From the NCBI GenBank assembly GCA_033762255.1, contig JANRLT010000035.1:1-41130 (forward strand): a stretch of 41,130 nucleotides of DNA. The letters run 5' to 3'. Each line of letters begins with the position of its first letter. The stretch's first letter is position 1. The notes under the pieces are model-generated. The model saw only the letters and a program-made list of their open reading frames with translations, was not told the origin of the DNA and did not search any database. Shown piece after piece: positions 30,487 through 40,621 of the stretch. This stretch comes from Pirellulales bacterium (GTDB taxonomy: Bacteria; Planctomycetota; Planctomycetia; Pirellulales; JALHPA01). Position numbers and translations under genes: made by a program.

Positions 30487-32127
30487 ATGTCCTGGTCCCG
30501 TTTTCGGCTTTCCGCCGCGATTAGTCTGTCGCTGTTAACCGGTACTTGGCTGGGGGCGTGTTGCGCTCCCGCAACGGCGCAGGCCGCCATTGGTGAAGCG
30601 AGCGTCGGCGACAGCGAGGATTTTGCCCAGGCAGGGCAACCCCCCGCGCCTTTGACCGATGCCGTCGACGAAGAACAGCCTGTTCCTTTCGCCTTGCCTG
30701 GTACGAAACGCCAAGCTCAAGTTGCACCCGTCCCCTCAGCCGCGGCGGGCACGATATCCGCGCCAACCACAGTAGCCCCCGTAAATCCCCCGGCCGCGGA
30801 GACTAATGCTTCGGTGGATTATGACCCTAGCGCCTCTTCCTGCACCGATGCTGGCTGTACCGCCGCTCCCACTTGCACTAGTGAACCAACTTGTACCAGC
30901 GAGCCTTATTGCGACACTTGCGGCCCTAGCGGCTGCGAACTGGAATGCCCCGAACCAGAAGACCCCTGGCGTCTCTTTGGTCATTGTTGCTGCCTCAAAG
31001 ACCACGGCCTGGATATCCGCGGTTGGGCGGCGGGTGGTATTTTTACCAATTTTGACACACCCGCCAGCAACTTTAATGGGCCCGTGACATTCAACGACCG
31101 CGACGCCGAATTTCAACTCAATCAACTCTATATGATCGGCGAGAAGACCATCGACACCAGCGAATCGGGCTGGGATCTGGGGGGTCGTGTCGATCTGCTG
31201 TACGGCACGGATTACCGCTACAATATCGCCCGCGGTTTTAGCGCGCGTGATAATTTTACCTCCAAGTGGGAATCCGGCCGCTTTTATGGCCTGGATGTGC
31301 CGCAGTTTTATGGCGAACTTGGCGTACAAGACCTTAGCGTCAAAGTTGGCCGTTTTTACACCATCATTGGCTTTCAGGTGGTCACCGCGCCGGACAACTT
31401 CTTTTACAGCATTCCCTATACATTCCAATACGGCGAGCCCTTCACCCATACCGGAGCCTTGGCCACCTGGACGCCAAATGAACAGCTGTCGTTGATGGCG
31501 GGGGTAACGAACGGCTGGGACAATTTTGAGGATGTGCTGGGTCACCAGTCACTGCTGTATGGGGCTACATTTACCAGCAGCGATAGCCATGACAAACTCG
31601 CCTTTGCCATGCATATCGGCAAGGACGAAACCACTTTTGGCAACCCCGACGGCAACCTGGGCCAACGCTGGGTTTATAGCGTGGTCTACACCCGCGTTAT
31701 TACCGATCGCCTATCCTATGTCGCCCAGCATGACAATGGCCGCCAGGATAACTATAATAACACCGGCGAGGTGGGGCACTGGTATGGCGTGAATCAATAT
31801 TTATTTTACAAAATCAATTGCTGCTGGACCGCCGGTCTGCGGGCGGAATGGTTTCGCGACGATGACGGATTTCGCGTGGCGGCCCCCGGTGATTACGCCG
31901 CCCTGGGCATGAGCAATAATCCCGCCTCTGCGGGAGGTTGGGCGGGCAACTTTTATGATGTCGCGCTAGGTCTGAACTGGAAGCCAACTAGCAACCTGAC
32001 CGTCCGGCCGGAGATCCGCTATGATTGGTATGACGGCCCGGATAACGCTGGCGGCAATGAGCCTTTCGAAGACGGAGCCGACAACCAACAGTGGCTGGCG
32101 GGCTTTGACATTATTTATCTGTACTAA
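30487..32127 (+). CDS. Outer-membrane beta-barrel protein (BBP2/porin-like) with Cys-rich N-region
   Basis: The 546-residue protein begins at ATG 30487, five bases or so after a strong GGGAGGA site. It has a signal peptide (AAISLSLLTGTWLGACC), an Ala/Pro-rich stretch, then a Cys-rich segment (about 115-175) with repeated TCTSEP units and CCCL, and then a barrel domain of about 370 residues with alternating beta strands (WDLGGRVDLLYGTDYRYN, YGELGVQDLSVKVGRFYT) ending in the aromatic LAGFDIIYLY, as in outer-membrane barrels. It matches the BBP2/DUF1597 family of planctomycetes. Transport substrate is unknown. A strong terminator follows. Confidence 0.85.
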   Translation: MSWSRFRLSAAISLSLLTGTWLGACCAPATAQAAIGEASVGDSEDFAQAGQPPAPLTDAVDEEQPVPFALPGTKRQAQVAPVPSAAAGTISAPTTVAPVNPPAAETNASVDYDPSASSCTDAGCTAAPTCTSEPTCTSEPYCDTCGPSGCELECPEPEDPWRLFGHCCCLKDHGLDIRGWAAGGIFTNFDTPASNFNGPVTFNDRDAEFQLNQLYMIGEKTIDTSESGWDLGGRVDLLYGTDYRYNIARGFSARDNFTSKWESGRFYGLDVPQFYGELGVQDLSVKVGRFYTIIGFQVVTAPDNFFYSIPYTFQYGEPFTHTGALATWTPNEQLSLMAGVTNGWDNFEDVLGHQSLLYGATFTSSDSHDKLAFAMHIGKDETTFGNPDGNLGQRWVYSVVYTRVITDRLSYVAQHDNGRQDNYNNTGEVGHWYGVNQYLFYKINCCWTAGLRAEWFRDDDGFRVAAPGDYAALGMSNNPASAGGWAGNFYDVALGLNWKPTSNLTVRPEIRYDWYDGPDNAGGNEPFEDGADNQQWLAGFDIIYLY

Positions 32128-32212: not shown

Positions 32213-32255
32213 AACGCTTTGTGGATCTCCCGCACGATCCACAAAGCGTTTTTTT
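32213..32255 (+). terminator. Strong intrinsic terminator after the BBP2 gene
   Basis: AACGCTTTGTGGATC (32213-32227) pairs perfectly over 15 bp with GATCCACAAAGCGTT (32236-32250) around an 8-base loop and runs into a T tract (32249-32255). Confidence 0.92.
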
Positions 32256-32559
32256 GGCTTTATAGAACGGCCACGCCAGCGGTTTGCACACATTTTCTAC
32301 ACGACTTGCTAATCGGGTTAGCTACTGCTTGTCTCTTTAATGGCAGAGAGTCTCAAATTATTTGCTTAACGCCATTTAAAAATTTCCCTAAACCCATTCA
32401 AATTTTGGACTTGCGCAAATCAACAATAATTCGCCAAGCGTCCTTTAGCTTGGTTGGCACAGTGATTGCGTTACTAAATAGCCGTGATAGCAGAAACAAC
32501 TAGGGTTTAAAAACAACCCTGATCTGCACCCCAAAATATTATTCAGACGCGTGTGTGGG

Positions 32560-32646
32560 GGGTGTCACGAACTGTTTACAGAAGAAGAGTTGGGCCTTCT
32601 TCTGACAGTCCTTCGGGATTGGGCCAGTTCGTGACACCCTGTTTTT
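32560..32646 (+). ncRNA. Three-way-junction inverted-repeat element, candidate structured RNA
   Basis: GGGTGTCACGAACTG (32560-32574) pairs over 15 bp with CAGTTCGTGACACCC (32625-32639). Inside are two more hairpins: CAGAAGAAG (32579-32587) with CTTCTTCTG (32596-32604), and CAGTCC (32606-32611) with GGATTG (32616-32621) closed by a C-TTCG-G tetraloop. A T tract (32642-32647) follows. The UUCG loop and T tract suggest an RNA ending in a terminator. It could instead be the paired ends of a small non-autonomous element. It lies in an 836-base gene-free stretch (32128-32963). Confidence 0.5.
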
Positions 32647-32722
32647 TGCAAGAGGCGGTCGATTGTGTCAGGCCCGACATGCTTACCCCCCCAATCCAGG
32701 TGACTCTTTGTGTGACCGTAAG

Positions 32723-32782
32723 GATGCCCCAACGGCTTGGGAGGGTGCTCCGCCTAACCCCCCAGGCCGGGGCGTCTTTTTT
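32723..32782 (+). terminator. Long branched terminator-like hairpin upstream of glnB
   Basis: GATGCCCC (32723-32730) pairs with GGGGCGTC (32769-32776); inside, GGCTTGGG (32734-32741) pairs with CCCAGGCC (32761-32768), and GGGT (32743-32746) with ACCC (32757-32760). G-U pairs occur but the helix is long and is followed by six T (32777-32782). Its transcript could begin near the preceding three-way junction. The 181 bases to the glnB start hold no gene. Confidence 0.6.
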
Positions 32783-32963
32783 CTGTAGTTGAGATCTCTT
32801 AACACCGGTTAGGTCAGTTACTACTGCACCATTCCTGTTGTTTTATCTTTCAGCTTCATCGCGGAAGCGAAATGGTTTACCATAATAGATGTTCGCACCG
32901 GGCAATATTTGCCTTGGGGGGCAGCTATTTCTTCTGAACCATTGTTGACGGCTAAACATTCGC

Positions 32964-33311
32964 ATGAAACTGATTCTTGCCATCATTCAACCCAGCCGCC
33001 TAGAGGCTGTCAAAACCGCCCTGACCGAAGTCGAGGTCTTTCGGCTGACAATTATGGATGTACAGGGTTTTGGCCGCCAAAAAGGGCACGCCGAAGTCTT
33101 TCGCGGACATGAGATCTCCGTCAATCTGGTCCGCAAAGTGCAACTCATGATTGCGGTTAATGATGACTTTGTGGAGCCAACGATCGAAGCCATCATCAAA
33201 GGGGGGCGCACCGGCAAGCAGGGGGAAATAGGCGATGGCAAAATTTTTGTCCTGCCGCTTGAGGACTGCATTCGCATCCGCACCGGCGAACGGGGAGGCG
33301 AAGCGATTTAA
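32964..33311 (+). CDS. glnB: P-II nitrogen regulatory protein with atypical T-loop
   Basis: The 115-residue protein is a P-II trimer subunit that senses ATP/ADP and 2-oxoglutarate and regulates nitrogen metabolism by binding partners. Visible: MKLILAIIQPSRLEAVKTAL, the T-loop start GFGRQKGHAEVFRGHE, and the B-loop KGGRTGKQGEIGDGKIFVL. Numbering matches E. coli GlnB: residue 46 is Phe, 49 His and 51 Ile, so the uridylylated Tyr51 and the cyanobacterial phosphoserine 49 are both missing. No amtB or glnA is adjacent, so partner is unclear. The ATG at 32964 has no ribosome-binding site that I can see. Confidence 0.93.
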   Translation: MKLILAIIQPSRLEAVKTALTEVEVFRLTIMDVQGFGRQKGHAEVFRGHEISVNLVRKVQLMIAVNDDFVEPTIEAIIKGGRTGKQGEIGDGKIFVLPLEDCIRIRTGERGGEAI

Positions 33312-38218: not shown

Positions 38219-39400
38219 GTGGACAAGGCACAAGATAGATATTGTTGGATCGTTTCACGCCTACTCAAAAATCACGCTGTAAACGGTGAAATTGGCCGTT
38301 TAACAGGCGATTACCGCACTCAGGCGGAAAAGCTGCGCGACCTGCCATTCACGGATCGGCAAGCTTTTTTTGAGACAAAGATTCTCCCCGATGACTCCCT
38401 CGAGCGCGACCGGATGATCCGGCTGGTGCTGGCGGCTGATCCGTGGAAAGACCCGGATCAACCGACCACATTCGCTGATTTATCCGGTAAGATTGCCGCG
38501 ACGGAATGGGAATGGCAGGACTGGCTCCCGCGTGGATTCTTAACCCTCCTGGTGGCTGAACAGTCTATTGGCAAGTCCTACTTTGCATTAACCGCCATAG
38601 GCCGTGCAATCCTTTGTGGCGGTATCTGGCCAGACCGCACGCCAGCACAGCACGATCCCAAGAGCCGGATTCTTTGGTGCGAAAGCGAAGGTATGTTAGC
38701 CGCGCACTTGGAACGCGCCAGCAAGGCCGGATTACCTCTTAGCCGAATTCTGATTTGGAATGACGATCCATTCTCCATTCCAAATTTGCGCGATCCCCGC
38801 GACGCCGACAAGCTGCGGGATGTCGTGGCGATCCATAAGCCGCGATTGCTGGTGCTGGATTCATTCAGCGGTGCCCACAACGGCAAGGAAAATTCCAGCG
38901 ATGAAACATTGCCGGTTACCCGACTGTTGGCAGAGATTGCGGCACGTAATCAAATAGCTGTCCTGGTTATTCACCACTTACGAAAACAGACCAAAGGCGA
39001 TGACGAACTAACCCTATCTCGAATTCGTGGATCGTCTGGAATCACGCAATTTTGCCGCGTCGTGTGGAGCCTCCACAAAGCCGACAAGCGCAAGGCCGAA
39101 ATCGAACTGGCTCAGTTAAAGAATAACTTGGCCGTACCGCCGGAACCGGTAGGCGTCCGCATGGATCAAGGCCAGTTTGCCTATTGCGATCTACCACAGG
39201 TCGCGCCGACCGCCGGTGCTAGTGCAACGGACTGGCTGCGGGATTATCTGTCCAATGGCGGAAGGCGACGGCAGGACGCTGTCGACGCCGGAAAAGCTGC
39301 GGGACATTCCCAGCGAAATATCGACCGCGCCAAGACCGCGCTTGATTTGGTGGCTACTCAGGACGGCAAGGAAACGATCTGGACTTTACCTGAATTTTGA
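38219..39400 (+). CDS. RepA-like RecA-fold ATPase/helicase (AAA_25)
   Basis: The 393-residue protein starts with GTG at 38219, nine bases after AAGGA. The RecA-like domain at about 95-315 has Walker A VAEQSIGKSYFAL (G118-K119-S120, with Ala in place of the first Gly), Walker B LLVLDSFSG (D214), VIHHLRK, and RGSSGITQFCRVVWSL, as in RepA helicases of small replicons. The C-terminus (about 335-393, SNGGRRRQDAVDAGKAAGHS) looks like a winged helix. Role inferred: replicative helicase of the element, acting with the iterons and primase that follow. Confidence 0.85.
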   Translation: MDKAQDRYCWIVSRLLKNHAVNGEIGRLTGDYRTQAEKLRDLPFTDRQAFFETKILPDDSLERDRMIRLVLAADPWKDPDQPTTFADLSGKIAATEWEWQDWLPRGFLTLLVAEQSIGKSYFALTAIGRAILCGGIWPDRTPAQHDPKSRILWCESEGMLAAHLERASKAGLPLSRILIWNDDPFSIPNLRDPRDADKLRDVVAIHKPRLLVLDSFSGAHNGKENSSDETLPVTRLLAEIAARNQIAVLVIHHLRKQTKGDDELTLSRIRGSSGITQFCRVVWSLHKADKRKAEIELAQLKNNLAVPPEPVGVRMDQGQFAYCDLPQVAPTAGASATDWLRDYLSNGGRRRQDAVDAGKAAGHSQRNIDRAKTALDLVATQDGKETIWTLPEF

Positions 39401-39415
39401 TCCCTCAAGGGAACC

Positions 39416-39556
39416 TTTGCCAACGTTCCCCCCCTAGGGTGCAAAAGCTTGGCAAACGTTCATTTTTTCGACGTAACCCTTTACCAAATAACAACTAATG
39501 TTTTGCCAAGCAGTTGGCAAACGTTCCCCCCTTGGCAAACGTTTTGGCAAACGTTC
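39416..39556 (+). repeat. Iteron array, candidate replication origin
   Basis: TTGGCAAACGTT occurs at 39449-39460, 39514-39525, 39532-39543 and 39544-39555, the last two directly tandem. A degenerate copy TTTGCCAACGTTC is at 39416-39428. TTGCCAA (39503-39509) faces TTGGCAA (39514-39520) as an inverted repeat. The array lies between the RepA-like gene and the primase start, the usual place for an iteron origin. Translated, it would encode repeats of WQTF, but the primase most probably starts after it. Confidence 0.8.
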
Positions 39557-39562
39557 ATTCCC

Positions 39563-40621
39563 ATGCAAACGGACTTGCAATCCCTCATCGAAAACGATCT
39601 TGGCCCTGGCCGTCGATCCGGTAACCGGACATTTTGGATTTGTCCGTTCCATGAGGAAAAATCTGGCAGTCTGACCGTCACGCCGGACGGCGAAAGGTAC
39701 AAATGTTTCGGGTGCGGTAAATCCGGCGACGCTATCGCTTGGCTAATGGATCGGCACAGTCTCACATTCAGGGACGCCGCCGACCGGGTAGGGAAAGTCC
39801 TGGATCGGCCAAAAAAACTGAGTCTGAATTCAGACGCAGTTAATTCACCCCCACAACCCCGATTCAAGGCCGCTAGCACGCCGCCAGAAGCCGACTGGCG
39901 GGACAAGGCCATAACGATCATCAAACAGGCGGAAACACGTCTCCACAGCCGCGATGGATTTGACGCGCTCAATTATCTTTTCCTGCGCGGACTGACCCTC
40001 GACACGATCAAGGCAGGACACCTTGGACTGACCGCCGACGGCGGCATATCGATCCCCTGGTTTGACGCCAGCGGCACGCCGGTATTTATCCAAGTGCGGC
40101 AATTACGGAAACTACCCAAATACAAGGCGATCCCTGGCGGCAAGCGTGTTGATTTTTACCCGCGACGTCCGCGTCCTGGTCGGCCATGTTTGATCGTGGA
40201 AGGGGAGTTTGACGCGCTCTTGGCGGCACAGGACATAGGCGATTGCATCGACGTTTGCACTCTTGGCGGCGCGGCTGACAGCCTATCCTCGAGCGCGGCA
40301 ATGGCATTGTGTTCCGCCAGTGTGGTTTTGATTGCGACCGACAGCGATAAAGCCGGGGATTTGGCGGCTGAAACGCTACGCAACGTGGTCCTAAATTCGA
40401 TCCGTGTTCTCTGGCCGGTAGGCAAAGACGCGACCGAATGTTTCGGATTGCGCCGCACGCTGCGGGTAATGCAGGCCGACCTCCCCCGATGTTCCGCCGG
40501 GAAATGTGACTCTTGGTGGATCGGGGACAAAGGACGTCTGCATTGTGGCGTTTGTCGGCCCTACGGAGATGCCTACGAAGGGATCGTCCTACTGGCCGAT
40601 GGCGCGGTGGTGGAAAGATGA
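39563..40621 (+). CDS. CHC2-TOPRIM primase-like protein
   Basis: From ATG 39563 the product has 352 residues. The DnaG-type zinc ribbon WICPFHEEKSGSLTVTPDGE then YKCFGCGKSGD gives C27, H30, C48 and C51. A TOPRIM domain follows at about 205-275 (CLIVEGEFDALL with E213 and IATDSDKAGD with D260, D262). A second Cys set (C310, C315, C328, C331; KCDSWWIGDKGRLHCGVC) at the end may be another zinc knuckle. An upstream in-frame start would translate the iterons and is disfavoured. Likely element primase; it overlaps the next gene in ATGA. Confidence 0.88.
   Translation: MQTDLQSLIENDLGPGRRSGNRTFWICPFHEEKSGSLTVTPDGERYKCFGCGKSGDAIAWLMDRHSLTFRDAADRVGKVLDRPKKLSLNSDAVNSPPQPRFKAASTPPEADWRDKAITIIKQAETRLHSRDGFDALNYLFLRGLTLDTIKAGHLGLTADGGISIPWFDASGTPVFIQVRQLRKLPKYKAIPGGKRVDFYPRRPRPGRPCLIVEGEFDALLAAQDIGDCIDVCTLGGAADSLSSSAAMALCSASVVLIATDSDKAGDLAAETLRNVVLNSIRVLWPVGKDATECFGLRRTLRVMQADLPRCSAGKCDSWWIGDKGRLHCGVCRPYGDAYEGIVLLADGAVVER

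Follow-up and report, generated by a model that had tools for sequence, protein, structure and literature searches.

A hairpin with a conserved CCGCCU loop, linked to sigma-54 promoters and to amtB and glnB in Pirellulales, as a candidate regulatory RNA

What occupies the long gene-free stretch upstream of glnB in this planctomycete genome, and is it an RNA, a mobile element or merely a signal for the neighbouring genes? The window, that is, the whole stretch of 41,130 nucleotides analysed here, belongs to a genome of 5.47 Mb in 72 contigs. Between the end of a BBP2 porin open reading frame at 32127 and the start of glnB at 32964 it leaves 836 nt without a gene, as the first-pass annotation stated, and in this gap that annotation had described nested perfect pairings. 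These are indeed present (32560-32647): a 15-bp outer stem (P1) encloses a 9-bp hairpin (P2), whose loop between the two arms is AGTTGGGC, and a UUCG hairpin, and T's follow (Table 1). The computed fold of this element, hereafter A, contains all three helices and reaches -50.9 kcal/mol on the plus strand, compared with -33.9 +/- 3.3 kcal/mol for 200 dinucleotide shuffles (z -5.15; 0/200 as good). The reverse strand folds well too (z -5.8), but without the T tract. On the other side of the gap, 3' of the porin gene, a strong terminator hairpin with 15 bp and a T run (32213-32250) separates the porin from the nitrogen unit. Elsewhere in the window, at 38219-40621, an AAA_25 ATPase gene lies beside a CHC2/Toprim primase-like gene, perhaps left over from a mobile element or phage.

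Table 1. Coordinates of the features upstream of and including glnB in the window
Feature	Position	Strand	Remarks
sigma-54 (-24/-12) promoter TGGCACAGTGATTGC	32455-32469	+	exact consensus TGGCAC-N5-TTGC; between porin terminator and A
Conserved 5' flank of A, GCGTGTG	32549-32555	+	GCGYGTG in G001, G019, G035, G033; related GGCGTGCG in G017
A, outer stem P1, 5' arm	32560-32574	+	GGGTGTCACGAACTG; perfect 15-bp inverted repeat with 3' arm
A, hairpin P2	32579-32604	+	9 bp; arms CAGAAGAAG (32579-32587) and CTTCTTCTG (32596-32604)
A, conserved part of P2 loop, GTTGGGC	32589-32595	+	identical in five genomes, CTGGGC in the sixth
A, UUCG hairpin, CAGTCC-TTCG-GGATTG	32606-32621	+	6 bp including one G-U; lineage-specific
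A, outer stem P1, 3' arm	32625-32639	+	CAGTTCGTGACACCC; pairs with 32560-32574
T tract (T6) after A	32642-32647	+	branched intrinsic-terminator shape; T4-T7 here in all six homologues
B, terminator-like hairpin	32714-32783	+	R1 match 76.8 bits; only copy in genome; z -4.1
B, apical loop CCGCCT	32750-32755	+	
glnB (nitrogen regulatory protein P-II)	32964-33311	+	PF00543, E 1.2e-27

A search of relatives retrieved A from the genomes G001, G019 and G035, and their alignment revealed two conserved blocks: A itself and, near 32716-32780, another hairpin, B. The covariance model of A finds copies at the same place in the window (W), G001, G019, G035, G033 and, more weakly, G017. These are six genomes, including the window's own, from three families of Pirellulales, and every homologue of A stands in the same neighbourhood of sigma-54 promoter and B. 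Compensatory substitutions, which the first-pass annotation had named among the checks of its proposal, are present in both the outer stem and the 9-bp hairpin, with none of 500 shuffles reaching the covariation score. Over W, G001, G019, G035 and G033, 100% of the cells in the 15 pairs of P1 are paired and 6 of these pairs have changed on both sides, as have 5/9 pairs of P2; the model of A was built from four of these five sequences, so the counts lean towards it. Slid controls for A are 36-47% paired, which makes the pairing signal of A a non-trivial one. The UUCG arm, on the other hand, is missing in two genomes (G019 and G035) and takes another form in G001, G033 and G017, and a conserved three-way junction was rejected because this arm is not retained among the homologues. 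Thus, the part of the earlier proposal that called A a structured RNA is supported, with P1 and P2 covarying at one fixed place in the relatives, while the three-way junction does not hold as a trait of the family. In two loci of family f17 (L057 and L070) a shared stretch, CTGGGTCGGTGGGTGGGAT, takes the place of the UUCG arm between P2 and the 3' arm of P1. Since other lineages carry a different long hairpin between the promoter and B, at A's place, A is a quickly changing terminator-like domain.

None of the families in Rfam accounts for the locus. At gathering level there is no match in the window, nor in six homologous loci that include two arrays (see below); below that level, the interval 32400-32980 gives only chance miRNA scores (E > 5), and the models of the glnA and Downstream-peptide riboswitches do not match it even at E up to 10. 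We therefore rejected assignment to a known RNA family. The other origin that the first-pass annotation had offered, a small mobile element, fares no better. The genome search finds A once and B once, where a REP, a MITE or the end of an insertion sequence would be expected in several dispersed copies, and mobility was rejected on this single copy and the fixed neighbourhood of sigma-54 promoter and B; for A, the single copy refutes current mobility. It is also most improbable that A is a domesticated palindromic repeat of the REP/MITE type that was captured upstream of glnB. Dispersed palindromes with a similar stem (GGTGTCAGGAACC... then TTTT) do exist in relatives, with 12 motif copies in G017 and 13 in G001, but the window's own genome has none of them, and A is found once, in one position and one orientation, with its 5' flank and the loop GTTGGGC conserved across families. 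The further order-wide matches to the model of A, in G017 (C98, C60), G144 and G237, turned out to be dispersed palindromes and not homologues. REP/MITE-like palindromes of two types, GGTGTCAGGAACC... and GGGTGCCACTGCTGGC..., each followed by T's, also occur around 1500 in L163-L167.

Hairpin B, which is more conserved than A, and the sigma-54 promoter had both been missed in the first-pass annotation. BLAST with B matched 151 of 396 Pirellulales genomes, and a covariance model of B raised this to 233/396, or 174 of the 252 good-quality genomes and 86 of the 144 genera. Among 343 genomes sampled from the phylum, the model gave only two matches outside the order, both marginal (E about 0.006) and neither of them convincing. 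The 36 stretches retrieved by a scan of named genomes all came from planctomycete assemblies, with some doubtful species labels. The covariation in B is extensive: in an alignment made without fitting to the structure, 12 of its 21 pairs have changed on both sides, and 62 cells have changed in this way as opposed to 21.5 +/- 3.8 after shuffling (0/500 shuffles). Across 46 aligned sequences the apical CCGCCU never varies, and it is present in 86/91 loci, which were chosen by their match to B, many of them from metagenome assemblies. Of the five loci without it, four lie behind a divergent AmtB and one on a short contig. In the former (L210, L212-L214), B-type hairpins follow an AmtB about 30% identical to the query, and L211 has the same hairpin on the short contig; the altered loops of L210-L214 read CCGCAA, CCGCCA and TCGCCTGG. 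A conserved small open reading frame in B, with an AUG after AAGG, was rejected since homologues do not preserve the frame and the covariation agrees with an RNA. Many families also conserve a small hairpin (about CTTCGGCTC-TTGCCT-GGGCCAGAAG) some 20-35 nt upstream of B, as seen in L052-L055, L057, L058, L062, L070 and L079-L083, with GGTCCC/GGGACC in G017.

The neighbourhood of B was analysed in a set of 90 loci. Leaving out 17 amtB loci that are cut at the 5' end, a sigma-54 consensus precedes the unit (amtB, or B in loci that lack amtB) in 66 of the 73 assessable loci, and over the same 73 loci the reverse strand and the pattern read backwards each give 1. The promoter thus stands in the right orientation, and, with its activity predicted from the consensus, A and B would form one sigma-54-dependent transcript. 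B follows amtB in 53/90 loci and precedes glnB in 68/90, at 135-530 nt; the window itself lacks an amtB upstream of B. In 15 amtB-B loci glnB is absent for about 1-3 kb, many of these have a convergent gene next, and in G001 the arrangement promoter-A-B faces a convergent cyclophilin gene. The amtB-B loci without a nearby glnB and the convergent next genes link B to nitrogen-regulated transcripts and not to glnB alone.

This layout bears on the possibility that glnB is controlled in cis by A and B as leader elements, be it as attenuators or as a riboswitch, with read-through set by nitrogen status. Such a role would suit the glnB gene that follows B at short distance in most loci, as well as the terminator shape of both elements and their place between promoter and gene. 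We nevertheless consider it unlikely, as the 15 loci just described offer no nearby glnB to control and often a convergent gene in its stead, as no conserved alternative antiterminator was identified, and as a single attenuator would not be expected to comprise up to 21 hairpins.

Such arrays are found in family f7, where tandem B-type hairpins follow amtB, 21 of them in L219 (3001-5051), 15 in L092 (428-2066), 9 in L094 (1101-2066) and 5 in L220 (2947-3572); the array of L092 is a 108-nt repeat, and no glnB lies within 3 kb downstream of that of L219. All 45 hairpins of L092, L094 and L219 keep CCGCCT on differing stems, and most array copies have no long T tract. The window holds one CCGCCT hairpin only. 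Neither termination nor attenuation readily explains a loop repeated so often, and its repetition suggests that CCGCCU binds something. Accordingly, a role for A and B as plain intrinsic terminators, keeping sigma-54 or amtB transcription out of glnB, seems quite improbable to us. By inspection, both A and B have a GC-rich stem followed directly by a U tract, as do most loci with their T-rich tails, and B also stands at 3' ends that face convergent genes, all of which a plain terminator would explain; the automatic terminator scan, which takes loops of 3-8 nt only and no branched stems, lists neither. A terminator, however, needs no hexanucleotide loop that is invariant across an order, nor does it need 15-21 copies that share one loop and mostly lack a long T tract.

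Taken together, the comparison of genomes shows both structures, the links with the promoter and with amtB and glnB, the fixed loop and the arrays. The reading that we favour, and hold to be probable, is that A is the 5' structured domain of a noncoding transcript of nitrogen starvation that would act through the loop of B. Sigma-54 with an NtrC-type activator would start transcription near 32480, the start sites and the nitrogen response both being predictions from the promoter consensus. The RNA would fold into A, whose long covarying stem, hairpin loop GUUGGGC and T tract have the shape of a terminator at which transcription may end, and as a terminator-like 5' domain A would limit or tune read-through. 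Polymerase reading past A would make B, a second terminator-type hairpin that shows CCGCCU at its apex, and glnB could be reached by some read-through or from a promoter of its own. B would be the functional core; in most of the order it closes either a sigma-54 amtB message or a short sigma-54 transcript at the 3' end. We infer that this RNA is expressed and that B probably acts in trans, offering CCGCCU to an RNA or protein partner in the manner of a regulatory RNA from a 3' UTR. Action in trans rather than only in cis is suggested by the 15 amtB-B loci without a nearby glnB, by their convergent next genes and by the layout of G001. On the opposite side, B precedes glnB at most loci, where it may act in cis as well, and the loops of the group with the divergent AmtB (L210-L214) depart from CCGCCU.

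As for the partner, CCGCCU does not appear to be a general anti-Shine-Dalgarno seed. In the window's genome its complement, AGGCGG, shows no enrichment before ATG (398 occurrences, and 396 of the pattern read backwards), and this candidate was rejected. A second candidate lies within the unit, where the P2 loop of A and the loop of B can form 7-8 contiguous pairs (shuffled-loop p about 0.01-0.07), with U-G, U-A and C-G variants at one position. A scan of the whole A leader for pairing with the B loop gave no excess over shuffles except in G001, and the pairing of the two loops, through which A may bind B, is suggestive as a lead only. More tentatively, we can imagine an order-wide RNA that is produced together with the ammonium transporter or driven by a sigma-54 promoter of its own. 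Via CCGCCU it would sequester or recruit one specific partner, an RNA-binding protein or an RNA, in some lineages as a sponge with as many as 21 hairpins, and a matching loop in A would control it; this extended version is possible, but doubtful.

A search of the literature for a nitrogen-related small RNA of planctomycetes found none, and regulatory RNAs of this phylum are hardly described in what was searched. Several described RNAs come close to the unit. GlnZ is a small RNA derived from the 3' UTR of glnA in Enterobacteriaceae, nitrogen-regulated and with a conserved seed sequence (PMC9731577). B likewise lies at the 3' end of a nitrogen-assimilation mRNA where it follows amtB, but its parent gene is amtB, or none, and not glnA, it forms hairpin arrays, and we claim no sequence relation. 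The alpha-r14 (NfeR1) and 'cuckoo' RNAs of alphaproteobacteria, which belong to nitrogen stress and NtrBC, carry an identical unpaired motif on differing hairpin stems, the anti-Shine-Dalgarno CCUCCUCCC (PMC10746234). The same design of several hairpins with one loop and differing stems is seen in the three B arrays, whereas CCUCCUCCC does not occur in B loops, the B loop is CCGCCU and the arrays are as long as 21 hairpins. Judged by sequence, B shares its defining motif with neither GlnZ nor the NfeR1/cuckoo RNAs. The glutamine riboswitches of cyanobacteria, glnA and Downstream-peptide, of which the glnA RNAs can be tandem (PMC2864571), resemble B in being found near PII and ammonium-transporter genes; B differs in having no Rfam match, in being a single hairpin and in its location at amtB 3' ends or behind sigma-54 promoters. 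The Rhodopirellula-1 motif is a candidate RNA reported for Planctomycetes and Proteobacteria, without an Rfam accession in the table of that paper (PMC2864571). It is compared with B here by its description only, B not being convincingly found outside Pirellulales; as far as that description goes, the two may overlap.

In sponge RNAs of the CsrB/RsmZ type, many hairpins with a repeated GGA loop motif titrate a binding partner. The B arrays similarly repeat one loop motif over many hairpins, but this motif is CCGCCU instead of GGA, and GGA is not kept (AAGGUU in L092, AAGCUGG in L219). With one to 21 hairpins in tandem, the natural loci provide a ready dosage experiment for a titrating RNA, and the CCGCCU loop is a search handle for the partner of B. 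Altogether, the fixed CCGCCU loop across the order and its arrays point away from a mobile element and towards a regulatory RNA that has not been described before. An RNA of this kind, shared across the order, tied to sigma-54 and constant in its loop, would open a direct way into the nitrogen control of these bacteria.
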